Source: Cytauxzoon felis (Eukaryota > Apicomplexa > Aconoidasida > Piroplasmida > Theileriidae). From it: 14,953 nt of DNA. The stretch is from NCBI GenBank assembly GCA_020283715.1, contig JAIQCW010000022.1, positions 1 to 14,953 on the forward strand, in the 5' to 3' direction. A program made the position numbers and the translations under genes. Shown here piece after piece: positions 1 to 14,953 of the stretch (positions within the stretch are counted from its first letter, which is position 1; each line of letters opens with the position of its first letter). The notes below the pieces were generated by a model that saw only the letters and a program-made list of their open reading frames with translations, had not been told where the DNA came from and did not search any database.

Positions 1-136
1 GAGTGGCTATACTCTTTAGAGATAGGTGATTGGAAGAGCTGACGGCAGGATGAAAAGAGTTGGATTGGACCTCGAGTGGAGAGCTCTCTGCAGGAGAACG
101 CGAGGTTGGACCGTTGGTAGAGGTAACCTCAGGTGG
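1..136. repeat. GC-rich fold-back repeat R1 (partial) in intron 1 of the left-edge gene
   Basis: This copy carries the family modules CTCTTTAGAGATAGG, GAGCTGACGGCAGG, ACCTCGAGTGGAGAGCTC-like and AACCTCAGGTGG. It is cut by the window edge. It begins 48 nt after a GTACGA donor at 184. It reads through in frame with the upstream exon, which I judge coincidental because the family is GC-rich and poor in stop codons. Confidence 0.8.
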
Positions 137-505
137 AACAGAGGTTAATGCATTAGTGGTTGCATCGATTCTGAGTTCTCGTACTTTGGTTAGTAGATCA
201 TCATTTAAATTATTATTATTATTATTCTTTGAAGGTTTGTTTGCGATGGAATCTGATAATTCTATGGTTGTATTCTTTTTGTATCCATGATATGGGTCTG
301 TGGGATGTGTATTGTAATTAATTTTTTTATATTTATAATAATTTGAATTTTTATATTCTAATGGATATCTAATATGATTAAATGGTTCTTTTATAAATAA
401 TTTATTATTTTCTTGTATATTTTCTAATAAATTTGGTACTATGGGCGGTGACCATTTATTATCATTCAATAAATCATCTGATGTTAGCCACCAATTAACT
501 GCCAT
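1..505 (-). CDS. Unrecognised protein, first exon and start of intron 1 (partial, runs off left edge)
   Basis: The ATG at 505-503 opens a frame that starts MAVNWWLTSDDLLNDNKW. I place the end of exon 1 at 185 (107 residues) because AAA|GTACGA at 187-179 looks like the donors used elsewhere in the window, and a GC-rich repeat begins 48 nt further on, the same arrangement as in the neighbouring repeat-bearing introns. The frame happens to stay open through the repeat to base 1, so a naive call would add about 61 repeat-derived residues. The exon has no signal peptide, is polar and Asn/Tyr/Lys-rich, contains an HPTDPYHGY stretch and ends in a run of six Asn. It lies 163 bp downstream of the SMC3 stop codon on the same strand. 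I do not recognise the family. The start is well supported; the intron boundary is inference. Confidence 0.6.
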   Translation of the reverse strand, partial: MAVNWWLTSDDLLNDNKWSPPIVPNLLENIQENNKLFIKEPFNHIRYPLEYKNSNYYKYKKINYNTHPTDPYHGYKKNTTIELSDSIANKPSKNNNNNNLNDDLLTKVRELRIDATTNALTSVPPEVTSTNGPTSRSPAESSPLEVQSNSFHPAVSSSNHLSLKSIAT

Positions 506-668
506 TATTAATAAATATATAGAAATAAAATTATTATTTTATCTTGTTAAATAGTATTCTTGAGATTCCATTTGGTGCACCAGTGTTGTGTGTTTGACCT
601 TTTGGACTTGTATATCAATCTTCTATAGCTAATGGTTCCTATATAAAGTTATATATATTATTCCTATA

Positions 669-3600
669 TTATATATATACTTGTATAATCGATTCTAATG
701 CCTCATTCATATTAATACTACGTAATTGACTTATACCATTAATATTCTTTATCTCATAAAACACTTCACCAGGCATTACCAATTGCTCCTTAAATGTAGT
801 TAATATACACTGAGTATTCTTAGATTGCTTCTGTAATAAATTTGCAACTCTAGTAAGATAATTGTCATCCAATGCCGCATCAATCTCATCAAATAAATTA
901 AATGGAACATTATTCAAACGCTGAATAGCAAATATAAACGATAAAGATACAATCGTCTTCTGACCACCTATACAATTCATATAACACATACATGAAGGAA
1001 TGTAGTTATTCCACCTGAGGTTACATCCATCTTCCTTCGTCTTGCAGACAGCTCTCCACCTGAGGTCTTCCCACTCGCCGTGGTGGCTCTTCTATTTACC
1101 TCCCCGTAAACGGTATATCCACTCCCAGAGATCGTGGCTAGGTTTAGTACATGACCTCAAGTGGAATACCTGGAAGCGATCCACGGGAGCTGGAAGGGGA
1201 GGTAAATAGAAGAGCTGTCTGCAAGACAAAGGAAGGTGGAGATAGCTTCATGTGTAGTATCTATTAGGTTTAGTTTGTGTACATACCGGAGAGTTGGTGT
1301 AGTTGTTGTAGTTCGGAATTATTGAAGGATACTTTGATATCGAGTCCGATGAATTGATGGTTTTCATTGATGTTGGCATAGAATTCTATGTGATTTTATA
1401 TATGTATAGAGATTTATATTGTACCTGGTAGACATGTAGTGATTTTTTTCGTTGTTGTATCACGTTTTATTAAAAACTATTGAATTAATAAATTTAAATC
1501 AACAACTTACAACTTTAATTCTACCATTCGGTACCAATTCCTCAAATATCTCACTTATATTATCATTCAATCGTGATACAAATTGAACCAAATTAGTATC
1601 CTTTTGATTATTCAATGACTATATATATCATTATATACACAATTAATGACTACTCAACCTGAAGTCCAATCCAACTCTCTTCTCCAACCTCTCTTTGTCT
1701 TGCCGTCAGCTCTTTTATTTACCTATCTCTAAAGAGTATAGCCACTCCCGGAGATCGTGGCGATGTCTACCCGGAGAAACAGGAAATGTCTACCCGGAGA
1801 AACAGGAAATGTCAACCCGGAAGAACAGGCATATAATAGTGTAACCTCGAGTGGAAAACCCGTAGCTGATCTCAGGGAAGCGGAGGGTGAGGTAAATAAG
1901 AAGGCCACCACGGCGAGTGGAGGAAGAGTTGGATTATACTTCGTGTGGAAAGTGTATTTTATGAACATACTTTGATGGTTTTGAGTATGGATGATTTGGA
2001 TATATTGATATTATTGGATTGTTGATTGAGGTATTGGTATTCATCTGAGTGATAGATATTATGATTGATGAAGGTTATACCTTTGATATTATTATAATCA
2101 TTGGATTGTATTTGATTTTCTGTAAGATCGTATAGTTGACAATCCTATAATTGATGATATATATAAAATTTATAATAAATGATATATACTTTATTGACTT
2201 TAGAAAGTTGTTCAAGTATATCTTTACGATTAGTATTGAAATTATTTTTAACATTTTCTATTAATTGTTGATCCATAATTTTCAATTCTTGATTTAATTG
2301 ATTTAATGTAACTCTAAAAAAAATTTTTTTTAAATATAAAAAGTAAATATAATTAAAACATACTGTACTGATGATTTCCTCTTATTTAAATTACCTAAAT
2401 CCATAGTCACCTTATCCAACTTCTCTACTATCATTTTACGCTCATTATCCATCATCGATATCTTATTCATTAACAACTCCCTCTCAGACTATATTAATAC
2501 AATATATAAACGAAATCATACAATAACAAATGAATGAAGTACACCTGAGGTCCAATCCTACTCTTCTTTCCACTCGCCGTGGTGGCTTTCTCTATTTACT
2601 TCCCCCTCCGCTTCCCTGAGATCAGCTGCGGGTTCTCCACCTGAGGTTACATCTACTATACTCGAGGTCTGTTCTTCCGGGTTTACAACCTTTGTTCCTC
2701 CGGGTAGAATTCCTGTTCTTAGGGGTAGACATATTTACGTTCTTCCGAGTAGACATTATACCGAGGATGATCTACGGGAATCCGAGGGGAGGTAAATAGA
2801 AGAGCTGTCTGCAAGACAAGGATAGGACCTCAGGTGCAGTTGAGTATGTAATAATATACAAACTTCGATGGATGAGTTTTTTTGGCTGGAGATTTCGATT
2901 TCTTCATGTATCTGTATGATGATGTTGATATAATAATGATTGATACAAACAAGATTTTTTTGTATTTCTAATTGTTTAATTTTATTATCGAGTTCATTTT
3001 GATGTGTTTTATAATCATTAATCATTTGTTCAGTAGTGATGATAAGTTTTGATGTATCATTTCTTTTTTCTGATAATGTAGAAATAGTTTCATTAAGATA
3101 TTGTAATTCTTCATTTAATGTAGCACGTTTACATTTTAATTCTGTTAATTTATTATTTAAATTTATTAAATCTAATTGTAATTTATTATTTTCATTTGAA
3201 TTAGGTCTTTCTTTATATCTAAAATAATAATTTATAAGATTTATTTATAATTAATAAATTTACATTTTTATATCTTCATCTATCTTATTTAATGAATTCT
3301 CTAATTCTTCTATCCTATTCTGTGATAATTTCAATCTTATATTCTCTCCAGTACTATTTTATTTTATTATTTATATCTTATATAATTACCTCCGTAAATG
3401 TTGTAATGATATATTCAATGAATTCATCTCATTCACACTAGCACTCCATACACCCTTCGATTCGTCCCTTTTCAACTTCAAACACTCCTGATCCTATATA
3501 TCAATATATACATATAATAAATACTATATCATTACACTCGAAGTCTAATACACGTATGTTACCACTGCCGTGGCGGCCATTTCTATTTACTTCCCCTTCC

Positions 3601-6600
3601 AGCTCCCGTAGATCGCTTCCAGGTTCCACTTGAGGTCATATTCACTATCTATCTGTTCTTCCGGGTTAAACTTTTTTTGTTCCTCCGGGTAAAATTCCTG
3701 TTCTTAGGGGTTGACATATTTATTCGTTCTTCCGGGTTAAACTTTATTTGTTCCTACGGGTAAAATTCCTGTTCTTATGGGTTGAATATCGCCACGATCT
3801 CTGGGAGTGGCTCTACTCTTTAGAGATAGGTAATTAGGAGAGGGTTCCACGCCGAGTGGGTCAGAGTTGGATTGGACCTCAGGTGGAGAGCTGTCTGCAA
3901 GACGACATACGGTCGAGGTAACTTCAGGTGGAATCTCAATACCTCATTGAAGGACGTACTTTTTCGATAGAATTGAGTTGTTGTGTGACATTATCGATAT
4001 TTGATTGTGTATTGGCAATATCTTGTTTGATGGTTTTGACTTTATGGTATGATTGTAAAATTGATTCATGTGTATTGACATGTCCAACGGAATAGATACC
4101 TTTATGATGGAACTGAAGTAATAATTATTAATATTTAATTGAATTCAACATACAATTTGTCCATTTGGTGTAACATAATTACGTCCACGTTTATCTTTTG
4201 TAGCTATACTTAAATCTGGTACAAGATCATATTCACTTAATAAATTCGACATTAAATCCTTCAAATTATCATCATATTCAACACAATTTAATAAAGGATA
4301 ATAATAATTATCCTCATCATCCTCATCTATTATCGTTTCTACATCATCATCCATTGTCCTAGCAGTCGTTGGTAATCTACTATAATCATCCATACTACTC
4401 CTCATTATAAACGCAGATGTCACTGTTTCATCACCACCTGAGGTTACATTCCTGCCGTCAGCTCTTCTATTTAGTTCTCCCTTCGCTTCCCTGAGATCAG
4501 CTGCGGGTTCCACTTGAGGTCCAGTACTACACTTCATTCCACTTGAGGTCACATCTAGTACATCCTTAGAACCATCTTCCATCATTCCCATGATGGATGA
4601 TCCATCACTACCCTTCGATGATCCATCACAACCTTCACCACGATCTCTGGGAGTGGTTCTACCGTTTACGGGGAGGTAATTGGAAGAGGCCTCCACGGCG
4701 AGTGGAAGAGAGGTTGTAACCTCAGGTGGAGAGCTGTCTGCAAGACCAACGGTGGTGGTAACCTCGAGTGTAGAACCAAGTCCATCATCAGGTGACATGG
4801 GGTCATAATGGGGTTGTTCATGGGGCGTTGTGGGATTATAGTGCTTTTTACCCCCACAACCCTCTTTTACCCCATTTTTCCCACTAGAGGTCCTGTCCAC
4901 TTCCTTCCTACTGATGAAATCGAGTGAAATGATTCTGATATTATGTTGGAATGTGTGGTTAGTTTCGATATATTCGAGTATGGATTTGGCGCATTTGATA
5001 TTTTTGACTACAATGGTGAATAATTTATATCCTAGTATATTTTCAATGGCAGTTTTATATTCATCTTTGATATTAATGAGATCGATTAAAATACCAATAT
5101 AATCATCTTTATATTTATAATATTCATTTGTATTGATCCAAGAATTGATAATATCGATTGTATTTTGATTAGAAAATGTAATTTTTTTAAATAAATTATA
5201 ATCATCTATAGAATTTATTTTTAATTTTGATAATTTTATAATTAAATCTGATAATTCTTTTTGTTTAATTCTTTTTAATTCTATATTATCTTCTAATAAT
5301 TTTAAATTTTTTTTATAATTTTCTTCATTTTTTATTACTTTATCATTTATTATTTTTAATTGGTCTTGTATTAATTTTATATCAGTAATATTTTTTTCTT
5401 GTAATTGTTTTAATATATTTATATTATTTAATTCATTATTTAATTTAGATTCTATATATAATTTTTGTTTTTTAAGATTATTTACTAATGTAGTAGAAGA
5501 ATTTTTATCCTGTTGGTACAACCCCATATTTATATTTTCATTTAATATATTAATATTATTATTAATATATTTTAATTGATTATTAATATTAATTAATTTA
5601 TTATTATTAAATATAATATTATTATTAATAATATTAAAATCATTATTATAATTAATTAATTTATCATTTAATAATATAGAATCTAAATTTAATTGATTAA
5701 TTTCTTTAATATATAAATCATATTCTTCTTTAATTCTAGTAAGTTGTATATTATTATAATTTAAATCAAGATTATCATCATCTAATGATTTTAATTTTAA
5801 TTTATAATCATTAATATAATTATTATATTCATCTAATTCTTTTTGATATTTAATAATATTATCATGATATTTATCCCCATTTATTATATATTTATTATAT
5901 AATTCATTATATTTATTTATATCTATTAATAATAAATTTATTTTTAATTTATTACGTTCATTATTTAATAATTTTAATTTATTATCATTAATATCATATA
6001 ATTGTAATTTTTTAATAAATTTTCTAATTTATAATTTATTGAATCATATATTATATTTGATTCATTTAATAATTTTAATGATTCATCTATCTTTTTATCA
6101 TATGTATAATGTCCTATTATATCACGTAATATAATTAAACGATCTTCTGTATTTATATTACATATTTTACATACTAAACCTTGTTTTATATTATAATATA
6201 AACCATTTTTATATGATGATATATTTATTAAATTCATATATATTAATATATCTTTATATTCTTTCAATGTCATCTGTTTACCATTTATCATATACACATC
6301 TTTATTATATGAATATATACGCTTCAAATATAATTCATTATTATTATTTTCTAAACCCATAGGTATATTATTCATACCTTTTATATCAAATACTAATTCA
6401 ACATATGCTGTATAATCATCATCTAATATAACATCATCACCCTTATATATATATTCAATACGATTACCACAATCTAATAATACAAAACCAATCGCTAATA
6501 ATATATTACTCTTACCACTTCCATTCAATCCAACTATAAAATTCATTATTCATATATACATAAACTTACCAATCACGTTGTATCCTGGAGAAAATTTAAA

Positions 6601-6657
6601 TACCGAAACATTTTTATATGTCCTAAAACCCTTTAAACGAACACATTTTATATACAT
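669..6657 (-). CDS. SMC3: Structural maintenance of chromosomes protein 3 (cohesin subunit SMC3), multi-exon
   Basis: SMC3 is the ATPase arm of the cohesin ring that holds sister chromatids together. My exons are 6657-6570, 6533-4912, 4437-4154, 4112-3960, 3493-3390, 3353-3264, 3218-2864, 2488-2364, 2313-2190, 2144-1971, 1618-1511, 1476-1425, 1385-1287 and 967-669. All junctions are GT..AG and keep frame, giving about 1225 residues, close to the usual SMC3 length. Visible parts: N-terminal MYIKCVRLKGFRTYK, Walker A GLNGSGKS (residues 31-38), Q-loop-like NIKQG, an Asn/Ile-rich coiled coil, a hinge from about residue 504, a return coil, signature LSGGQ (1125-1129, split by an intron inside a Gly codon) and Walker B NLFDE (1150-1154). 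The ATG at 6546 lies inside intron 1 and is not the start. Two oddities: a one-base frameshift at 6008-6013, and a repeat in the hinge (4434-4893) that could be intron or exon. The family is certain; exact splice sites are inferred. Confidence 0.93.
968..1286 (-). other. SMC3 intron (319 nt) splitting the ABC signature motif
   Basis: Donor CCG|GTATGT at 1287/1286 and acceptor TATAG|GTGG at 968/967. It divides the first Gly codon of LSGGQ (phase 1). It carries repeat R2 with 46 nt left on the donor side and 43 nt on the acceptor side. The junction is supported because both flanks encode conserved SMC signature residues in one frame. Confidence 0.88.
1011..1240. repeat. Fold-back repeat R2 (in SMC3 intron 1286-968)
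   Basis: Both arms contain the module GTCTTGCAGACAGCTC or its complement (1041-1056 and 1213-1228), next to a CTTCC-type flank, and both contain TCTATTTACCTCCCC or its complement. The centre holds the GCCACGATCTCTGGGAGTGG type module. The pairing extends into the surrounding intron: ATGAAG on one side is matched by CTTCAT on the other. GC content is clearly higher than in the neighbouring exons. Confidence 0.87.
1656..1949. repeat. Fold-back repeat R3 (in SMC3 intron 1970-1619)
   Basis: It starts with CCTGAAGTCCAATCCAACTC and ends with GAGTTGGATTATACTTCG, imperfect inverted termini. Inside are the ATAGCCACTCCCGGAGATCGTGG module, a 23-bp tandem array (1763-1829), GCTGATCTCAGGGAAGCGGA and the CCACCACGGCGAGTGG module. 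The host intron is 352 nt, phase 0, with 21 nt of unique sequence after the donor GTATGT and 37 nt before the acceptor. Confidence 0.87.
1763..1829. repeat. 23-bp tandem repeat, three copies, inside R3
   Basis: Two identical copies of a unit starting ATGTCTACCCGGAGAAACAG (1763-1785, 1786-1808) are followed by a diverged copy ATGTCAACCCGGAAGAACAGG (1809-1829). The unit is the loop module of the repeat family, also seen at 2690-2760, 3655-3784 and 8412-8505. Identity of the first two copies points to recent local duplication. Confidence 0.9.
2542..2836. repeat. Fold-back repeat R4 (in SMC3 intron 2863-2489)
   Basis: The termini are CACCTGAGGTCCAATCC (2542-2558) and GGATAGGACCTCAGGTG (2820-2836), a 17-bp inverted repeat with one mismatch. 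Arms carry TCTATTTACTTCCCCCTCCG and CGAGGGGAGGTAAATAGAAG; the loop holds three CCGG-containing modules of the GTTCTTCCGGGT/TTCCTCCGGGTAG type. The host intron is 375 nt, phase 0, donor GAA|GTTTGT and acceptor AATATAG|TCTGAG. Confidence 0.9.
3535..3931. repeat. Fold-back repeat R5 (in SMC3 intron 3959-3494)
   Basis: It is the longest simple copy. One end reads CACTCGAAGTC with CGTATGTTACC inside; the other reads CATACGGTCGAGGTAAC then CTTCAGGTGG, giving diverged inverted termini. It contains a 71-bp loop-module duplication (3655-3784), a GCCACGATCTCTGGGAGTGGC block (3791-3811) and the CTCTTTAGAGATAGG block. The host intron is 466 nt, phase 0, donor AAA|GTACGT. Confidence 0.88.
3655..3784. repeat. 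71-bp tandem duplication of the loop module inside R5
   Basis: Each unit reads GTTCTTCCGGGTTAAAC, then a T-rich stretch, GTTCCTCCGGGTAAAATTCC, then GTTCTTAGGGGTTGA. The second copy (from 3726) differs at a few bases only, such as TACGGG for TCCGGG and ATGGG for AGGGG. It accounts for most of the extra length of R5 relative to other copies. Confidence 0.88.
4434..4893. repeat. Fold-back repeat R6 in the SMC3 hinge (in-frame intron or exonised insert)
   Basis: The copy runs from CCACCTGAGGTTAC to CCACTAGAGGTCC. It includes the GCTTCCCTGAGATCAGCTGC module, a 51-nt block shared with R11 (4561-4611), CACGATCTCTGGGAGTGG, the CCACGGCGAGTGG module, GAGCTGTCTGCAAGAC and a G-run stretch (4799-4834). 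The minus-strand frame is open throughout. A phase-1 intron with donor CA|GTAGGA at 4911 and acceptor CTCAG|GTGGTG at 4438 would remove exactly 158 codons and bring SMC3 to normal length. Unlike the other copies, it leaves almost no unique sequence before the acceptor, so exonisation remains possible. Confidence 0.82.
4799..4834 (+). other. Possible G-quadruplex motif inside R6
   Basis: Three GGGG runs (4799-4802, 4810-4813, 4822-4825) and one GGG run (4832-4834) are separated by 7, 8 and 6 nt on the plus strand. This is the template strand of SMC3, so the transcript would carry the C-rich complement. The other copies of the repeat in this window do not show it. Formation is untested. Confidence 0.5.
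6008..6013 (-). other. One-base frameshift in an A6 run of the SMC3 coding sequence
   Basis: The frame encoding Walker A and the first coil (codons in phase with 6531) hits a stop at 5976-5974. The frame encoding the rest of the coil and hinge (in phase with 5527) is open upstream to this point. The two join without loss if the A6 run on the coding strand had one more A. No GT dinucleotide exists on the minus strand for over 100 bases around it, so an intron cannot bridge the frames. A homopolymer sequencing error is the simplest reading; a real mutation or slippage is the alternative. Confidence 0.8.
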
Positions 6658-6783
6658 TTTTATATCTATTATAATCAAATGTATAAAGAGAAACTTAATC
6701 TTATAATGAATTCAACCCACACATCCATGACCAAGACAATGAATTATATATATATGTATAGACAATCACATAGTAAATTATAT

Positions 6784-9700
6784 TTATAATAATGACTCAA
6801 TTTCCATTACTAATGGAGATTTTTTATCCGGTATTATACCAGATAAATCATCCAATAATGTATACGAATTATCATAAGATAAGGAACCACATTGCTCAAT
6901 CAATGTCAGTAATTTGTCATCATCCCTAACCTTCTGTAAAATCTTATACATCATCGACCATATACTAGATGGAATCAAACGATATATACCATTTATATCC
7001 TCCAATAAATACTTGAATACATATACACACTCATTATACTTATCTGTAAAATATATATAACAAGAGCTGAAAGAGATCATTCCACTTGAGGTCCAATCCT
7101 CCTCTCCATTCCACTCGCCGTGGAGGCTTCACCTATTTATTTCCCCCTTCGCTTCCCTGAGATCAGCTACGGGTTCCACTTGAGGTCTAATCACTACACT
7201 TCTGCCACGATCTCTGGGAGTGGCTCTACTCTTTAGAGATAGGTAAATAGAGAAGCTGTCTGCAAGACCAACCTCAGGTGGAACGACGAGTGGAAGACAA
7301 TGATGGATTTTCGATGGAGGATTTCCATATTTGTTTGGATTATGACGTACGTTTATGTGTGAGTAGTGTGAGTGTATGTTTATAGAGGTTGATGGAAATG
7401 TGTGTGTTATTTATTTTATTATTGCGATACTGATTAAATTGTTTCCAGACAAATGTATCCTAAAGAATTGAATTGTTTAATATATAAGAGATAACTATAC
7501 ATTTTGTTTAAGGTTACATAATTCTAAGAATCGTGCATACATTGAAGGCTCGGGTATACATTTGATCTAAAATGACATGAGCGTTATAATGTGTATGATA
7601 TGAACATACACGTATCATAGAATCTAATAATTCATTTAAGGAATTTATATTTTGATTTTCTAAATCTGATTCAAATGCACATAAGAAAATATGATAATGT
7701 GTCCTAATTAATTGAATGAATTAATGATAATATCTGAAGGTACCATTTTAGAAATGTTAAATTTGGTAATATTAGAAATAATAAATTAACTGCTGTATTA
7801 CCAGATATATTATAACTTAATAACTTCTTCATTGATGAATAAATATGAGAAATCTATATGAAATTCAATAATCATTAACAGATATCATCACACCTCTATA
7901 TTCTCATCATCAATTGTATTCTTAATTTCATATATCACATCATTCAAACCATCATCATCAGCAGACTCGTCCTAATTTATAAAATTTATTACATCATATA
8001 AACTTCGGAGCTCCACCTGAGGTTACAATCATACTCTTCATTCCACTCGCCTCCACCCGAGGTCGTCTTGCGGACAGCTCTCCACTCGAGGTCTATCCTG
8101 CCGTCAGCTCTTCTATTTACTTCCCCCTCAAGTTCACGTAGATCACTTTCGGGTAGTCCACTTGAGGTCTTATCACTACATCACGTTCTTCCGGGTAGAA
8201 GTCATTCTTGAATTCTCAAGTCCTCATATGGATAATTGAGATCAAGGGGACCGAGGAAATTTTTCAGTATAATTGTCTACCCGGAAGAACGAAGATTGTC
8301 AACCCCTAAGAACAGGCCCCCACCTGAGGTCCAATCCAACTCTCATTCTCTTGCAGAGAGCTCTTCCAATTACCTATCTCTAAAGAGTAATGCCACTCCC
8401 AGAGATCGTGGCGATGTCTACCCGGAAGAACGTAAATGTTCAACCCCTGAGAACAGGAATTCTACCCGGAGGAACAAAAGATGTCAGCCCGGAAGAACAG
8501 ACATTACCTCCGCCACGATCTCCGGGAGTGACTTTACCCTTCAGGGATAGGTAATTGGAAGAGGCCTCCACGGCGAGTGGCAAGACCTCGAGTGGAGAGC
8601 TGACGGCAGGAAAGACCTCAGGTATAGTACATTCGTCAATATAGCAAACCTTTAGGAATGTGGATTTGAGTGGTGCATGTAAGAATTTATGAATATCATT
8701 AGCATTGGTTTGATTGATATTGAGTATTGTATTCATGAATTTATCTACGGTATATATATTATTATTATTGTTATTTTTATTAAATAATTTTAGATTGGAT
8801 AATATTTTATGATATTCTAATATAATATTATGTATATTGGATGTATATAATTTATTATTGATTGAATTTATATTAAGATTAATAGTATTGAATATAGTCA
8901 TTAAGATATGTTTTAATAATAATTTATTATACCAATCATTATTATTTGTTAATATAAATTTATAATTATTAATTATAGATTCATTAAATATATATTTATC
9001 ATTATTATTTAATATATAATTAATTCTAATATCCCATTCTAATGTAGTACGATAATTAATAGATGTTAAATATTGTTGATTATCAATTAAATTTAATGAT
9101 ATATTATAATCATTAGGTATTGTATATTTTATATTATTAAATAATAAATTCTTATTATTATCATCATTTAATTCATATAAAATAGATATCTTATATAAAT
9201 ATATATATAATGATATAATATATTCTTTATTATCTATAGTACAATATAAAACATTATTATATATATCATTAAAACATTTTAATGTTGATGATTTTGTATA
9301 ATCTATATAATAATTTACATATCTTGTTATATTATCTGTAATATTATCAATCTTAGGTAATTTAAATTCTGTAAATACAAATATATTTCTTAAATATTTT
9401 ATTAATAATTTACATATATATAATAATTTTAATGATAATTCCCAACCATTTATAAAATTTTTACATAATAATCTTGTTATAAATTCTAATGAATATATAT
9501 CCAATACTAAAGGATTATTCAACATAAATATAAATATACTCAATACATCATTCATTCTACCACTCATATAATTCTCCATCAATAATATCCTATACCCCCT
9601 AGATAATACTATCTTGTCCATACAACTCCATCTTTTATACAACCTATATATTTATACATCAATTTATATATAAAACTACACCTGAAGTTACAGTCCTACT

Positions 9701-10654
9701 CTCTTCCACTAGCCGTGGCGCCTTCTCTATTTATTTCCCCTTCCAGCTCCCGTAGATCGCTTCCAGGTTCCACTTGAGGTTAAAACCTAATCTCAACGAG
9801 ATATGACTAAAGTGATGAAATACATGTTTGTAGGGATATCTCAATGAATATAAATTGAAATGAAGTGAGGATGAGTAAATTCAATAAATCATCAAATTCC
9901 TTTTCAATGAGGTATTGACATCAGAAATACATCCAATAGTCATTGAGTAATCTTCATGAGTTTCCCCAGAAATTGAGAAATTCCATCAAAATTTAGGGGT
10001 AGAAATGAAGTAGTGGAAAACAGTGATTGGACCTCAAGTGGTACCCGTAGCTGATCTCAGGGAAGCGGAGGGGGAAGTAAATAGAAGAGGCTCCACGCCT
10101 AGTGGAAGACGAGGAGAGTTGGATTTGACCTCAAATGGCGATGGAGAAGTTTGGTATGATGTAATAAATTTAGACGTACAGATTTCTGAGTGGTTTATTA
10201 TCGAGTTTATTTAATTCATTGAATAATACGGTAGTGAGATAATCTCTATATTCATTATAACCATCACTGATGATTTCTTTGACATCTATTACAAGGTCGC
10301 GATTCAAATTCTTGACTAGACCAATCTGATGTGTAGAATATGTTTAATTATAATGTTGATGTATAAACATACATTTATATCACCAAGTTTATATTTAGTT
10401 TTCTTAAACTCTTCCTTGTCATTACTTTTTAATGAACTATTACATTGTCTTGTATGCCCTTTACAATTCGGTATTATAAAGGTACAATCATTCCATCCTA
10501 ATGTCGAAGTACAGGTAGTCCTTCTTGCAATGACATTGAATTGTAATACATTGAGGACGATTGAGGAAGGTAAGGAGAGTATTGCGATGTTAATTAGAGT
10601 TATAAATGTATATAATCTATAATTATTATATCCGTTAAATGATAGACATCTCAT
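6784..10654 (-). CDS. Unrecognised 713-residue secreted or membrane-anchored protein, eight exons
   Basis: Exons: 10654-10373, 10325-10180, 9643-8650, 7971-7894, 7853-7744, 7703-7541, 7459-7351 and 7043-6784. All introns are GT..AG and the frame is kept, for 713 residues. The ATG at 10654 follows an in-frame TGA by 15 nt. Residues 14-36 form a hydrophobic signal peptide or anchor, followed by four closely spaced cysteines (48, 57, 64, 71) that could make disulfides. The rest is probably helical, rich in Ile, Leu and Asn, with an Asn run near residues 432-438 and a Glu/Asp-rich short exon (7971-7894). I see no catalytic motif and cannot name the family. Three introns (536, 678 and 307 nt) carry fold-back repeats; the other four are 40-81 nt. 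It ends 126 bp upstream of the SMC3 start on the same strand. A rhoptry or other secretory-organelle protein is possible but not shown. Confidence 0.82.
7082..7293. repeat. Fold-back repeat R7 (in intron 7350-7044 of the 713-residue gene)
   Basis: It starts CCACTTGAGGTCCAATCC and includes CCACTCGCCGTGGAGGC, CTTCGCTTCCCTGAGATCAG, CCACGATCTCTGGGAGTGGC, CTCTTTAGAGATAGG and GCTGTCTGCAAGACC, closing with CCTCAGGTGG and CGAGTGG. The flanking intron continues the inverted symmetry with AATGATCT against CATCATTG. The host intron is 307 nt, phase 1, donor AAAC|GTACGT, acceptor TTTACAG|AT. Confidence 0.88.
8013..8624. repeat. Compound fold-back repeat R8 (in intron 8649-7972 of the 713-residue gene)
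   Basis: This is the longest block and looks like two elements side by side. The part at about 8319-8624 is a complete hairpin with 52-nt arms (8361-8412 and 8512-8563). The part at 8013-8318 has one clear set of modules and a diverged AT-rich centre around 8205-8275. The host intron is 678 nt, phase 0, donor AAG|GTTTGC and acceptor AATTAG|GACGAG. The exon frame stays open for about 70 codons into the element, which would give a false C-terminus if the intron were missed. Confidence 0.85.
8361..8563. repeat. 52-nt inverted repeat arms of the R8 hairpin
   Basis: The arms 8361-8412 and 8512-8563 match at 46 of 52 positions as inverted repeats, with a 99-nt loop made of CCGG modules. Of the six mismatches, four become G-U pairs in the pre-mRNA sense, so 50 of 52 positions could pair in that RNA. 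Confidence 0.85.
9679..9781. repeat. Fold-back repeat R9, left arm of a split element
   Basis: Modules in order: CACCTGAAGTTACAGTCC, CCACTAGCCGTGGCGCC, TCTATTTATTTCCCCTTCC, CGTAGATCGCTTCC and CCACTTGAGGTT. It is the inverted partner of R10 (10026-10138); both lie in the 536-nt intron 10179-9644. The acceptor TATATAG|G follows 35 nt beyond it. Confidence 0.87.
9782..10025. other. Unique 244-bp spacer between the arms R9 and R10
   Basis: This AT-rich stretch lies within the 536-nt intron and has no coding frame of note. It lacks the usual CCGG loop modules of the family. A 15-nt sequence TCAATGAGGTATTGA (9904-9918) also occurs, in the opposite orientation, next to R5 at 3936-3950. It may be cargo or a replaced loop. 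Confidence 0.6.
10026..10138. repeat. Fold-back repeat R10, right arm of the split element
   Basis: Modules in order: TTGGACCTCAAGTGG, CTGATCTCAGGGAAGCGGAG, GGGGAAGTAAATAGAAGAG, CCACGCCTAGTGG and GAGTTGGATTTGACC then TCAAATGG. It mirrors R9 module by module, the clearest evidence that these repeats are fold-back elements. The donor CT|GTACGT at 10179 lies 41 nt beyond. Confidence 0.87.
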
Positions 10655-11433
10655 TAGAGACTCGAGATGGATTCAATCACTTGGACACATTTATGGAATT
10701 TTTTCCGCGTTATATTCAAGAGAATTTTCACCCCTAGGTATACAAACTTCCCTTGTTATACAGGGATTATCACTCAACACTATAAATATAACTCTCTATT
10801 CATCGTCACTTTTAATTAATTTACATTAAATGTGTAATTAAATTAGATTATATAACTGATTTATTAATTTAATTAATTTATAAAATTAGAAATTTATATT
10901 ATTTTATACACCTCTATACTTTACTTTTCCATCTACCCATCCTCTCATTAACATCATTTACACTCAATCACTTCATACTGATTATAATTTCCTTCTCTTG
11001 CATGGAATTTTCATCCTATATACAGAGGAAAATTCAACCATTTAGAAAATTCCTCAATATACATGAAGAAGATTCTACTGGTATACTAATCGAAATCTTC
11101 ATTGAAGTAATCCATCAACTGAATTCATTACCCATAATATTTTATAACTATTAATCCATATCATATCAATCTTCGCTTGATATAGTAACTAATGGTAATA
11201 GAGGAACTGACACACATTAACATAACATAAATGGATTATTGATTAGTAAATTAATTAAATTAATCTCAAATATAAATCAATTCCAATCAGATTATAATCG
11301 TCACAATCATTTATAATCTATACAATTATATCAATCATATATACTATATATATTTACTACATTATCATAATTTATTGTAATTTATAGATGCTAACACACA
11401 CCAATGGTATATCAACTATCTTATACAAATATC

Positions 11434-11736
11434 TCCGTCTTCCACCTGAAGTTACAATCCTACTATCCATTCCACCGTTCATTTGTCTTGCAGACAGCTC
11501 TTCTATTTACCTCCCCCTCCGCTTCCCTGAGATCAGCTACGGGTTCCACTTGAGGTCCAATCACTACTCTTCATCCTTAGCACCATCTTCCATCATTCCC
11601 ATGATGGATGATCCATCACTAACTTCATCACTACCTTCTCACCGCCACGATCTCTGGGAGTGGCTATACTCTTTAGAGATAGATAAATAGAAGAGCCACC
11701 ACGGCGAGTGGGAACAGTGGTTGTAACCTCAAGTAA
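11434..11736. repeat. Fold-back repeat R11, the only copy outside a defined intron
   Basis: It runs from about CTTCCACCTGAAGTTAC to TTGTAACCTCAAGTAAAAG, an inverted pair of termini. Modules include GTCTTGCAGACAGCTC, TCTATTTACCTCCCCCTCCG, CCTGAGATCAGCTACGGG, a block shared with R6 (11572-11621), CCACGATCTCTGGGAGTGGC and CCACCACGGCGAGTGG. All other copies lie in introns, so this one may mark a leader intron of the 713-residue gene or an undetected exon pair, for instance with donor GTATGA near 11793 or 11763 and acceptor ATATAG near 11345; this is inference. Confidence 0.85.
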
Positions 11737-11759
11737 AAGACACGTCGTGTAGACAACAT

Positions 11760-11843
11760 CTCGCTCATACTTCGCTCGGCTCGCTCATACTTCGTTCGTA
11801 TCACTCATTACATTCGTTCATCTCAGTCGTTTCACTCCTTCGT
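11760..11843. repeat. About 20-bp degenerate tandem repeat, four copies, just after the FAINT stop codon
   Basis: Two near-identical units CTCGCTCATACTTCGCTCGG (from 11760) and CTCGCTCATACTTCGTTCGT (from 11780) are followed by two diverged units built from TCACTCAT, TTCGTTCA and CACTCCTTCG. On the minus strand it is a purine-rich GAGCGAAG/GAACGAA array that starts about 6 nt after the TAA, so it would be transcribed as the 3' untranslated region or terminator of the FAINT gene. Confidence 0.75.
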
Positions 11844-11848
11844 GTCAT

Positions 11849-12946
11849 TTATGTTTCATAATCTTGTATTTTTTGATAGAATTCGTATCGTTGTGTTAGT
11901 ATCCATTTATTTCTATGATTTTTATAAAAGTATAAATCTTTGCGTATATTATCGGTTTGTATTTGTAATTTAGCGAATAATGGTTGTTGTTGGTATAAAT
12001 GTGTAACTATAGCATGGCATCGATCTTTTTTATTTGGTGATTCCCATATAATATTACCACCTTCATGTACTTTAGTAACATATAATGTATAATTAATTAG
12101 ATATATAAATGATGGTAAACCTATAGGTACATTTTCTACAACTTCATATTTATTTTCAATAGTAGTATTATTAAGTATATCTAAATCTGATTCATTTAAT
12201 ATTAATTTACATTTATGTTCATAATCATCTTTATTTATTGATATCCAATTATTATTTTCATTACATTCAAAAAATAAATAATTTAATGTAAAATGTTCTA
12301 ATATTTTTAATTCTAATAATTTTCTAATATTATTTTGTGATATAATTTTTATATTAGTACAACTTAATTCTAAATTATTACGATCCCATATTATTTGTTG
12401 TCTATCTTTAATACAACCAACAATTTCATATTTTAATATAGTAGCTGTTATTAAACTATTTTCATAATACATAGATTCTGTATATGATGTTCTATGCATA
12501 TCATTATTAATATCAAATTGTATTTCATTTGTTAATTTATTTAATAATAATAAATATTTATCAAATGGTATCCCTAACCAATTTTTATGTATAGGATTAT
12601 TATTATAATAATTTTTTATTATTTCATTATTATATTTTATATCTATAGACATTAATTTCATAATATCATATCTAAAATGTATATTTATTGATGATACTAT
12701 AACATCAGTACCTATACCAATCCATATAATATCTTCACCAGATTTTATTAATTTTACATCTATATCATTACATGTTATATATTTATATATATTTGAACCA
12801 TTATCACTATATTTATAATGTATATTCTCATCTAAACATGTCTTCAAATCTATCTGACGTACACCATCTACTTCTTCAATATTACAAGATAATATTAATC
12901 TTATATTATATAATAAATATAAAGTCAATAATAATTTAATATACAT
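11849..12946 (-). CDS. Secreted protein with three tandem FAINT (DUF529)-like domains
   Basis: A single uninterrupted exon of 365 residues. Residues 1-20 form a signal peptide with a hydrophobic core (LLLTLYLLYNI) ending at LILS-C. The rest splits into three similar units, about residues 31-124, 140-236 and 250-350. Each has a D/Q/N-IIW motif (W75, W187, W301) and a closing Trp 47-48 residues later (W123, W234, W348), with alternating polar/hydrophobic beta-strand-like segments between. The third unit, with YTLYVTKVHEGGNIIWES and LYFYKNHRNKW, fits the FAINT pattern best. FAINT proteins are expanded in Theileria and many are secreted, some into the host cell. I see no transmembrane segment after the signal peptide and no GPI-type tail. 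The exact role is unknown. It is intron-free, unlike its neighbours, and is followed at once by a tandem repeat. Confidence 0.85.
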   Translation of the reverse strand: MYIKLLLTLYLLYNIRLILSCNIEEVDGVRQIDLKTCLDENIHYKYSDNGSNIYKYITCNDIDVKLIKSGEDIIWIGIGTDVIVSSINIHFRYDIMKLMSIDIKYNNEIIKNYYNNNPIHKNWLGIPFDKYLLLLNKLTNEIQFDINNDMHRTSYTESMYYENSLITATILKYEIVGCIKDRQQIIWDRNNLELSCTNIKIISQNNIRKLLELKILEHFTLNYLFFECNENNNWISINKDDYEHKCKLILNESDLDILNNTTIENKYEVVENVPIGLPSFIYLINYTLYVTKVHEGGNIIWESPNKKDRCHAIVTHLYQQQPLFAKLQIQTDNIRKDLYFYKNHRNKWILTQRYEFYQKIQDYET

Positions 12947-13790
12947 TTCTACAATTTAATAATTATAATTTTATATTACATTTAAAAAAAAATTTTTTTT
13001 CGATACTAGACATTAAATTTATCCCCCTTTATACAATCTATCCTATAGTCAACATCATTTATTATACTTTATACACAGTAATTATATCCACAATACATAT
13101 AAATGCAATTAATCTATATATACATGCGATTAATCATGATATGAACAACACTATAATTTATTACGAAAATATCGCTACAATAGAGTAAAGTATTGATGTA
13201 ACTTATATTACACATCATCCTTATTACAAATATATATTAATCTCAACATTACTCAGGTCAAATGAAATCTACATCATACAACAGCTAATAGCTATATTAT
13301 AGTCATCAAAATTTAATGTGACCTAAGCATGTTTAAACTAGCAATATATTCATAATCTACACGATGTGTAGCGGCGATTTTTTATATTCAAATGTCTTTA
13401 ATAGCCATTTAATGATATGAAAATCGCATCTACATACAGCATCCAGAAATGTAGTACATGCGTATTTTTCATTATATTTCTATAATATATCGATAGATAA
13501 TGTCATTTAAAATGAAGTAAATGTCATATTTCAATGAAATTTCATATATTCAAATCTATATTTCATCATACCAGTCCATACATGACACTTGTTCACTAGA
13601 CCCTAAAGACGTCCCATGACGGTAGTTTAGATGGAATTTTATCACGCATATAACATCATCCACAGAGTAATATATGCATTTTAGACCTCTATACATCATA
13701 TAGTTTCAGATTACAATGTCAAAATGACAATAGTATAGTCCCATGTGAAATTAAGGGATATTATTCACTTTTTGCCTAGAGCCTAGGACG

Positions 13791-13826
13791 CCTTGGCTGT
13801 TAAACAGCCAAGGCTTACCAGTAAGC
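13791..13826. repeat. Two adjacent GC-rich hairpins
   Basis: CCTTGGCTGT (13791-13800) and ACAGCCAAGG (13804-13813) form a perfect 10-bp stem with loop TAA. GCTTAC (13813-13818) and GTAAGC (13821-13826) form a second 6-bp stem. The context is AT-rich. No T-run follows, so a simple terminator is unlikely. Confidence 0.85.
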
Positions 13827-14197
13827 GATGGAATCTTCCAACACTATTACAGCTGACTATAGTAAAGGAATCTTATTCTTAATGCATTCCCACATTTTTT
13901 TATTATAAATTTAATAAATTTAAATTGATTTAATTAATGTTATCGTGAGATTAGAGTGAATTAACTTTAAATTATAATAGAAGGTCGATATTTTATTAAA
14001 TTACAGTATAAATAATTTTTTTATACACATTTTATGCCTAATTCATATATAAAACACTATTTAAGGATAAAATCTCTATTCATGTAAATTAACTCGCGAC
14101 ATAATATGCATTTATTACACATTTAACGTATAAATCATCAAATGACCAGAAATTTTTATAGTAATTACGAATATTTAAGATTTATATAGATCCATGG

Positions 14198-14238
14198 ACA
14201 GTTTTCTATGCAGAATTTATTTCTACATAGAAAACTGT
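14198..14238. repeat. 13-bp perfect inverted repeat with 15-nt loop
   Basis: ACAGTTTTCTATG (14198-14210) is the exact complement of CATAGAAAACTGT (14226-14238). Confidence 0.9.
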
Positions 14239-14536
14239 ATTATTACTAGCGCTATTTATGTTAACATCTAGCTATATAGTTGATATAGAGGTCGTTTTAA
14301 CAGGATTCTACGTGTCAGACGCATATAATAAGCATTTTAATTATCGTGGTAAATATAGTACACATGACAAAAAGAATGACATTATTGTCTGATTAATAGT
14401 GGGGTTATTTCAAGACTCTATTAAATTACGATATAAGTATAGAATCCCCCAACTATTTAGGAATTTTATGTCAGAATAATATACAATATATTAAAATCAT
14501 ATTATTAAGAACCGGTTTTTTGAATTATATGTTTTG

Positions 14537-14582
14537 ATATATAGATTTGAATGTAGTGATCACTACATTCAAATCTATATAT
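14537..14582. repeat. 46-bp perfect palindrome
   Basis: The two 23-nt halves, meeting between 14559 and 14560 in GTGATCAC, are exact reverse complements with no spacer. The arm includes ATAGATTTGAATGTAGTGA. Confidence 0.95.
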
Positions 14583-14812
14583 ATATAAGAGTCGTTTTTA
14601 TATAATTTTAGACTATATAATGTAATATTTTATATAATAATTATTTATTTTATATTTTTTATGTATTATTATACATTTTTCTTTACATTTTAATGCAGTT
14701 TACTTATATACCATCATAATGTATTATATAGCAACTATTATATGGGGAATCGTAACCCAACTTGCTTTACAACTCTACTACAGGATTCATCCCAAATTAT
14801 CTAGGATCCTAA

Positions 14813-14840
14813 CCTCAGACTTTATAATATAGTCTTGAGG
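14813..14840. repeat. Imperfect hairpin directly before a 19-bp inverted repeat
   Basis: CCTCAGACT (14813-14821) pairs with AGTCTTGAGG (14831-14840) with one bulged base. It abuts the inverted repeat that starts at 14841. Confidence 0.75.
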
Positions 14841-14937
14841 AACGGTTTTAATATATTATAGGATAACATTTATAACATTTATTCAATTCTTTTGTTGTTT
14901 ATATACTGTTGTTTTTGCATAATATATTAAAACCGTT
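14841..14937. repeat. 19-bp perfect inverted repeat with 59-nt spacer
   Basis: AACGGTTTTAATATATTAT (14841-14859) is the exact complement of ATAATATATTAAAACCGTT (14919-14937). Confidence 0.9.
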
Positions 14938-14953
14938 TATATGATTTTCTTCT

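Follow-up and report, generated by a model that had tools for sequence, protein, structure and literature searches.

Several families of short palindromic repeats are known to spread within genomes. Rickettsia palindromic elements (RPE) are palindromic sequences of about 150 base pairs (bp), many of which lie in frame in unrelated genes and keep an open frame with a conserved peptide; 44 insertions are given for R. conorii (PMC10969869). The GC clusters of yeast mitochondria are GC-rich palindromes in AT-rich DNA that spread by merger and shuffling, among them GC42 of 42 nucleotides (nt), with AG target nucleotides (PMC4478555). In Amoebophrya, introner elements carry inverted repeats of 8-20 nt that join the intron ends and direct repeats of 3-5 nt over the exon borders (PMC7789003). 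Apicomplexan genomes are called streamlined and without DNA transposons, and in the available text of a survey of 64 of them no transposable element is given for Cytauxzoon felis, all candidate miniature inverted-repeat transposable elements (MITEs) in the survey having been removed as likely false positives (PMC9141347). Here we describe a GC-rich, two-armed palindromic repeat in a 14,953-nt stretch of DNA from C. felis, a blood parasite of cats (GCA_020283715.1, contig JAIQCW010000022.1, positions 1 to 14,953, forward strand; hereafter the window), where copies lie in introns, in coding exons and between genes. As an initial annotation of the window had supposed, no prior description of such a family in piroplasmids was found in the literature searched, which did not extend to subscription papers and supplements.

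The genome analyzed comprises 8,623,106 bases in 181 contigs, of which the window is contig C15; a published C. felis assembly differs from it in size and contig number (9.1 megabases, 361 contigs, 31.8% GC; PMC3748084). Repeat islands were defined by repeated 12-mers in a sample of 214,953 bases, made up of the window and 20 stretches of 10 kilobases (kb), the latter having a GC content of 31.7%. The sample contains 119 islands with a median of 266 bp, which occupy 16.1% of its bases and have 50% GC against 28% outside. Each copy consists of two inverted arms, and each arm reads T, H, A, core, where T, the end box, is TCCACCTGAGGT, H is a hairpin cassette with three alternatives, and the core cassette is C+E, D1 or D2. 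Two lineages can be told apart: a short one of about 266 bp, with an E arm facing a D arm, and a long one, in which two D arms face each other across a common centre of about 240 nt. Exactly one core per direction is found in 61 islands, the remaining 58 being partial or compound. The arms converge in all 61 of these simple copies; in 21 complete copies T boxes stand inverted at both ends, as terminal inverted repeats, and conservation begins abruptly at TCCACCTGAGGT on both ends. The arms are strongly heterotypic, like cores occurring in 4 of the 61 simple copies where 21.5 were expected (permutation p = 5e-5); between one arm and the other, H and A variants agree no more often than by chance (H, 13/45 alike vs 16.6 expected; A, 23/41 vs 25.8). 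Thirteen long-lineage copies, picked from best matches, share the centre between two D arms, and the right core is D1-type in eight of them and of another type in five; a common centre with differing right cores points to cassette exchange. A profile search with a model of the element returned 416 matches, three of them beyond the islands. The loop of some copies contains tandem G modules (TGTCTACCCGGAAGAACAGG-like; window positions 1764-1829, 3646-3785 and 8274-8502).

The family is abundant. Allowing up to three mismatches, the D1 box matches the genome 2,694 times and the E box 2,876 times, with one and no matches, respectively, for the reversed patterns. The density in the sample is biased upward because the 20 stretches sit on contigs met through repeat matches; with a correction from module counts (0.81-0.93), the scaled number of islands (4,774) becomes about 3,900-4,400 copies and the repeat share roughly 13-16% of the genome. 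The location is nuclear: copies lie in genes with spliceosomal-type introns, and the 42 listed matches of one query fall on at least 32 contigs. In one sampled stretch (L037), positions 3484-3809 and 5113-5438 are 100% identical over 326 nt, in inverted orientation, and belong to two oppositely oriented predicted genes. The borders of this tract are a T box and an H box, within older modules. Its length of 326 nt is not divisible by three, and with an open frame in both genes replacement would fit better than plain insertion. The best match lies within the same stretch for 16 of the 110 islands with a 150-nt match, where 5.9 were expected, and over all pairs identity is slightly higher within a stretch than between stretches (79.2 vs 77.6%, p = 0.02). 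Together with the thousands of module copies and the cassette exchange, these results support a spreading or gene-converting family, as the initial annotation had proposed.

To place the copies relative to genes, gene models were built with a purpose-built hidden Markov model in which repeat bases carry zero coding score and in-frame stops are still counted. The models are self-made, on unannotated DNA, and permit only GT-AG introns; the coding model was trained on data that included exonic repeat bases, which were left unscored during gene calling. Starting from weak seeds, the gene finder reached a splice consensus of AAG/GTATGT at the donor and TAYAG at the acceptor. Introns with strong splice sites and strong exons were regarded as high-confidence (61 of 288 predicted), and 20 short loci outside training served as a further test set, 14 of them having been fetched for holding the repeat. 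In the window, this repeat-blind procedure recovered to the base seven of the eight large-intron lengths proposed initially (307, 319, 352, 375, 466, 536 and 678 nt), together with the small-intron class, and all seven introns contain a repeat; the eighth, given as 474 nt if spliced, corresponds to a copy that we read as exonic. The two genes and their introns are as follows.

669 to 6549, minus strand: SMC3 gene, with SMC N-terminal part, hinge and C-terminal signature region
968 to 1286, minus strand: SMC3 intron of 319 nt; repeat at 1009-1229; junction inside the LSGGQ signature
1619 to 1970, minus strand: SMC3 intron of 352 nt; repeat at 1664-1935; three G modules in the loop
2489 to 2863, minus strand: SMC3 intron of 375 nt; repeat at 2540-2836
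3494 to 3959, minus strand: SMC3 intron of 466 nt; repeat at 3562-3932
6784 to 10654, minus strand: second predicted gene, with three large introns; no Pfam match for the three pieces tried
7044 to 7350, minus strand: second-gene intron of 307 nt; repeat at 7079-7300
7972 to 8649, minus strand: intron of 678 nt; compound repeat at 8011-8620
9644 to 10179, minus strand: intron of 536 nt; long-family copy at 9704-10125, including the shared centre (about 240 nt)

Two proteins illustrate that copies can be spliced out. Removing intron 968-1286 restores the SMC3 signature QLSGGQK, and in an Hsp70-family gene on contig C104 a copy with the long-family centre lies between GT and AG, so that splicing yields HLGKFDLTGIPPAPRG (regaining HLGKFDLTG), which we take to be a standard Hsp70 stretch. 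Across the 288 predicted introns, the element is present in 65/72 of at least 300 nt, 11/45 of 100-300 nt and 0/171 under 100 nt; among those of high confidence, it is present in 25/25 of at least 300 nt and 0/36 under 200 nt. On the further loci the pattern is weaker, with the element in 8/11 introns of at least 300 nt, 3/7 of 200-300, 1/9 of 100-200 and 1/39 under 100; the high-confidence introns there number 2/2, 1/1 and 0/3 (at least 300, 200-300 and under 100 nt), with none of 100-200 nt. As regards introns, the initial observation is borne out, though it is incomplete. The repeat typically begins some distance from the splice sites, the donor and acceptor flanks outside it having medians of 53.5 and 51.5 nt (50 of 75 element introns usable).

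Contrary to the initial annotation, the element is not confined to introns. By strict classes, 73 of the 119 islands are intronic, the largest class, while 22 are exonic, 14 intergenic and 10 mixed. The window itself contains both exonic and intergenic copies.

1 to 139, minus strand: repeat copy truncated at the window edge; reads open in frame with a predicted gene at 1-505 (minus strand); called exonic; best splice-pair score 0.3
4434 to 4770, minus strand: repeat copy read as SMC3 coding exon; sense, open frame; best splice-pair score 1.1
11441 to 11734, no strand assigned: intergenic repeat copy, 114 nt past the 3' end of the FAINT-domain gene
11849 to 12955: FAINT-domain gene, predicted single-exon, with a C-terminal FAINT (DUF529) domain

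The first two had been taken for intronic, but both are open in frame and offer no good splice pair; the SMC3 copy comes after the initial segment of the hinge domain, the part that was matched (positions 3-74 of 116). Over all 22 exonic islands, the 60-nt flanks on both sides average 0.10 coding score per nt, compared with 0.094 in long exons, and all 22 have open frames where 11.7 would be expected for random frames. Their best in-frame splice pair has a median score of −0.9, vs 1.6 at random exon positions; in intron copies, with no frame required, the median is 5.5 and the tenth percentile 2.3, and 20 of the 22 exonic islands fall below the latter value. Three of the 22 are in predicted single-exon genes. 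Where domains can be named, exonic copies adjoin or separate conserved parts, one being preceded by a sub-threshold P-loop piece and followed by a GTPase piece and another bordering a PSME4 HEAT stretch; 14 of the 20 exon pieces submitted gave no Pfam family at an expectation value of 0.01 or below. In a GTPase-like frame at L024:5398-6657, about 290 residues, mostly repeat-derived, stand between the P-loop and a later piece of the G domain with the frame unbroken.

Published work on the vaccine candidate cf76 bears on the exonic copies. Fragments of 720 and 828 bp of this single-exon gene were amplified from complementary DNA (cDNA), with sequenced clones (PMC3748084). The cf76 start primer has one exact match in the genome, and exact matches to four other cf76 primers were found at this locus, five in all, on which ground we assign the genome to C. 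felis or a very close relative; the primers lie 720 and 828 bp apart in unspliced DNA, the inner ones within the repeat copy L047:2032-2312. The equality of cDNA sizes and genomic distances implies that both arms of the copy stay in the messenger RNA, unless the printed sizes are mere predictions. The N-terminal and central fragments of the published work meet inside this copy, and the protein is given as about 706 amino acids in most isolates vs 723 in the sequenced one (PMC3748084).

Orientation separates the exonic copies from the intronic ones. Relative to the gene, E-first and E-last copies number 19 and 1 in exons and 17 and 21 in introns (Fisher p = 1.4e-4), a count that leaves out islands lacking E (2/22 exonic, 34/73 intronic) and one intronic island with both; on the further loci the numbers are 10 and 0 in exons vs 5 and 3 in introns. 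The 19 E-first exonic copies share one peptide frame, typically PPEV...SSNYLSLKGRATPGDRG...GPQVEPVADLREAEGEVNR. Exonic cores (16 E and 16 D) show no third-position excess (E 0.087, 0.050 and 0.087; D 0.181, 0.138 and 0.158), other copies being alike, which suggests that the exonic frame is tolerated, not selected. Between genes, copies occupy 6/16 convergent, 10/32 same-strand and 1/19 divergent gaps (convergent vs divergent, p = 0.03).

We consider it probable that these repeats form a non-autonomous, modular, palindromic nuclear family, most likely selfish, that is spread by recombination copying and sorted by splicing and by survival of the reading frame. Copies would spread through recombination between copies, a process of which one 326-nt tract is observed and which would also be their route to new sites. 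The distribution suggests a survival filter. Within introns, either orientation would be harmless because splicing removes the copy; between genes, copies would be tolerated, seemingly less often upstream of genes; and in coding exons survival would be possible almost only in one open orientation and frame, adding a hydrophilic-looking peptide of about 25-250 residues.

Several observations weigh against this account. The exon and intron calls rest on our own gene models, which pick coding-like flanks by design, and two of the 22 exon-class islands (L022:8716-8794 and L032:876-1069) have a splice pair that scores within the intron-copy range. Seven of the 72 predicted introns of at least 300 nt, none of them high-confidence, lack the repeat. 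The intron left after removal of the element was thought to be of normal size, but its median is about twice that (87 nt in 60 introns vs 42 nt in 128 element-free introns of at most 100 nt, p = 1.5e-15), and the flanks sum to 106 nt (the 50 usable introns) compared with 40.5 nt in 148 introns of at most 60 nt, so an insert within an otherwise ordinary intron is a mistaken or incomplete description. These flanks are rich in C on the donor side and in G on the acceptor side, as the arms are, making decayed outer modules plausible; that such modules are the source of the extra length is our guess, and pairing between the two flanks does not exceed that of shuffled partners (z −0.93; equalled in 29 of 200 shuffles). 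The heterotypic arms could mean ancestry or some constraint. No target-site duplication was found in 37 complete pairs (direct repeats of 2-7 nt, no excess beyond a few chance cases vs shuffled pairs), and the genome has no match to DDE_3, rve or DDE_4 at an expectation value of 0.001 or below, other families being outside the search; a hAT search gave no signal, nor did its own controls. No empty site was seen in a comparison confined to the genome itself, and orthologue searches with a second-gene exon (expectation value 1e-3) and with spliced SMC3 (1e-30) found no matches in a set whose only piroplasmid genomic DNA was this genome. Finally, islands of 150-420 nt fold more strongly than shuffled sequence, with a median z of −4.3 for intronic (49/73) and −3.4 for exonic islands (15/22). 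Covariation gives the consensus fold of the long family no support (term +0.8; double change in 7 of 85 pairs), and we read this fold as inherited symmetry, not as selected RNA.

Among the alternatives, the one that survives best is that the family descends from a DNA transposon as a MITE or fold-back remnant, with the T boxes marking the outer limits of its terminal inverted repeats, and was moved by a transposase since lost or too diverged to be recognized. The abrupt start of conservation at both ends, the convergent arms of every simple copy and the genome-wide copy number would all be expected of such a remnant. The lack of target-site duplications, the absence of DDE_3, rve and DDE_4 matches and the interchangeable inner cassettes are not, and DNA-transposon genes are reported absent from surveyed apicomplexan genomes in the available text of PMC9141347; we regard this origin as unlikely. 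A more far-reaching proposal is a nuclear palindrome that is still copying itself and enters coding exons and introns alike. Its peptide would then be part of hundreds of parasite proteins, among them essential ones and a vaccine-candidate antigen, copies lying in another frame or orientation would turn into introns, and one family would feed both new protein segments and new introns; in our judgment this is quite unlikely.

A related possibility is that insertion into an exon creates the intron, as with introners, so that element-bearing introns are new and not old ones that were invaded. In Theileria parva, introns make up about 10% and coding sequence about 70% of about 8 megabases, with a mean intron of 84-108 bp depending on position (PMC2612703), rounded figures from which we compute about 1.6 introns per kb of coding sequence; the element-free introns of C. 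felis alone reach 1.59 per kb, close to that value. Exonic insertion is real, and the downstream exon starts with G in 58% of 60 element introns vs 37% of 115 small ones. The splice sites, however, lie about 50 nt outside the repeat, so that the ends of the element do not coincide with those of the intron; no direct repeat spans the two junctions in 60 element introns relative to shuffled pairs (z −1.1); and copies occur in exons and between genes too, leaving this origin very doubtful. That the hairpin is a functional RNA drawing distant splice sites together, kept in long introns by selection, is highly improbable: strong predicted folds and repeats beginning about 50 nt from each splice site would suit it, but exonic copies fold similarly, one window copy reaches a z of only −1.63, arm variants are unmatched, covariation support is absent and introns contain both orientations. 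A scan of the window against Rfam gave no match at the gathering score; a SNORD74-like match at 9801-9872 (23.9 bits, cut-off 41) was set aside, since of 13 long-family copies only the window copy has TGATGA at the would-be box C.

Other features of the window and genome deserve mention. The SMC3 frame is broken at 5974-6028, between the overlapping frames 4145-6028 and 5974-6549 and near an A run, which may reflect a sequencing slip or an unrecognized feature; a predicted 272-nt intron without a repeat (6024-6295) falls at this break, within an open reading frame that matches SMC_N, and we regard it as a probable artefact. The gene-poor right end has a perfect AT-rich palindrome of 40 nt (14540-14579), by eye unrelated to the repeat. 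Elsewhere, the only RVT_1 (reverse-transcriptase) matches of the genome (G000:C56:73693-74436) lie in one frame of 1,010 amino acids, which, we presume, could be telomerase. An Hsp70 of this genome is 83-87% identical to named piroplasmid proteins, with 84-87% identity to Babesia and 83% to Theileria. A greater closeness to Babesia than to Theileria is unexpected for Cytauxzoon.

Set against the surveyed picture of streamlined genomes, a single repeat family here makes up roughly 13-16% of such a genome. Its copies amount to thousands of natural experiments on which parts of a proteome can accommodate a foreign peptide, and they may show how a splicing system of short introns copes with hairpin inserts and whether introns arise from repeats. 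Of practical concern, a copy is present in the vaccine candidate cf76, and any prediction of genes from the C. felis genome must account for the repeat.

Comparison with known systems reveals a mixture of familiar traits. Like MITEs and fold-back transposons, the elements are short, non-autonomous and numerous, with inverted-repeat ends; unlike them, they show no target duplication, no transposase in the three families searched and interchangeable inner cassettes. They share with the introners of Amoebophrya, also an alveolate parasite, repeated introns, inverted repeats, predicted hairpins and a transposon-like spread (PMC7789003), and differ in their canonical GT-AG sites (imposed by our models) some 50 nt away, the lack of border repeats and the existence of exonic copies. 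With yeast mitochondrial GC clusters, with which organellar double-hairpin elements are grouped here by name only, they have in common GC-rich palindromes in AT-richer surroundings and cassette exchange; those clusters are mitochondrial and short, whereas the C. felis repeat is nuclear, about 266-430 bp long and without visible target duplication. The likeness to RPE is one of description, not of RPE sequence, and we claim membership neither in RPE nor in GC clusters. As in RPE, palindromic copies lie open and in frame within protein genes (22 of 119 islands called exonic, 19 of them in one orientation and frame), and the cf76 cDNA contains a copy. In contrast to these bacterial elements, the repeat of C. 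felis is nuclear, is built of two-armed cassettes with thousands of module copies, and has most of its genic copies in introns.

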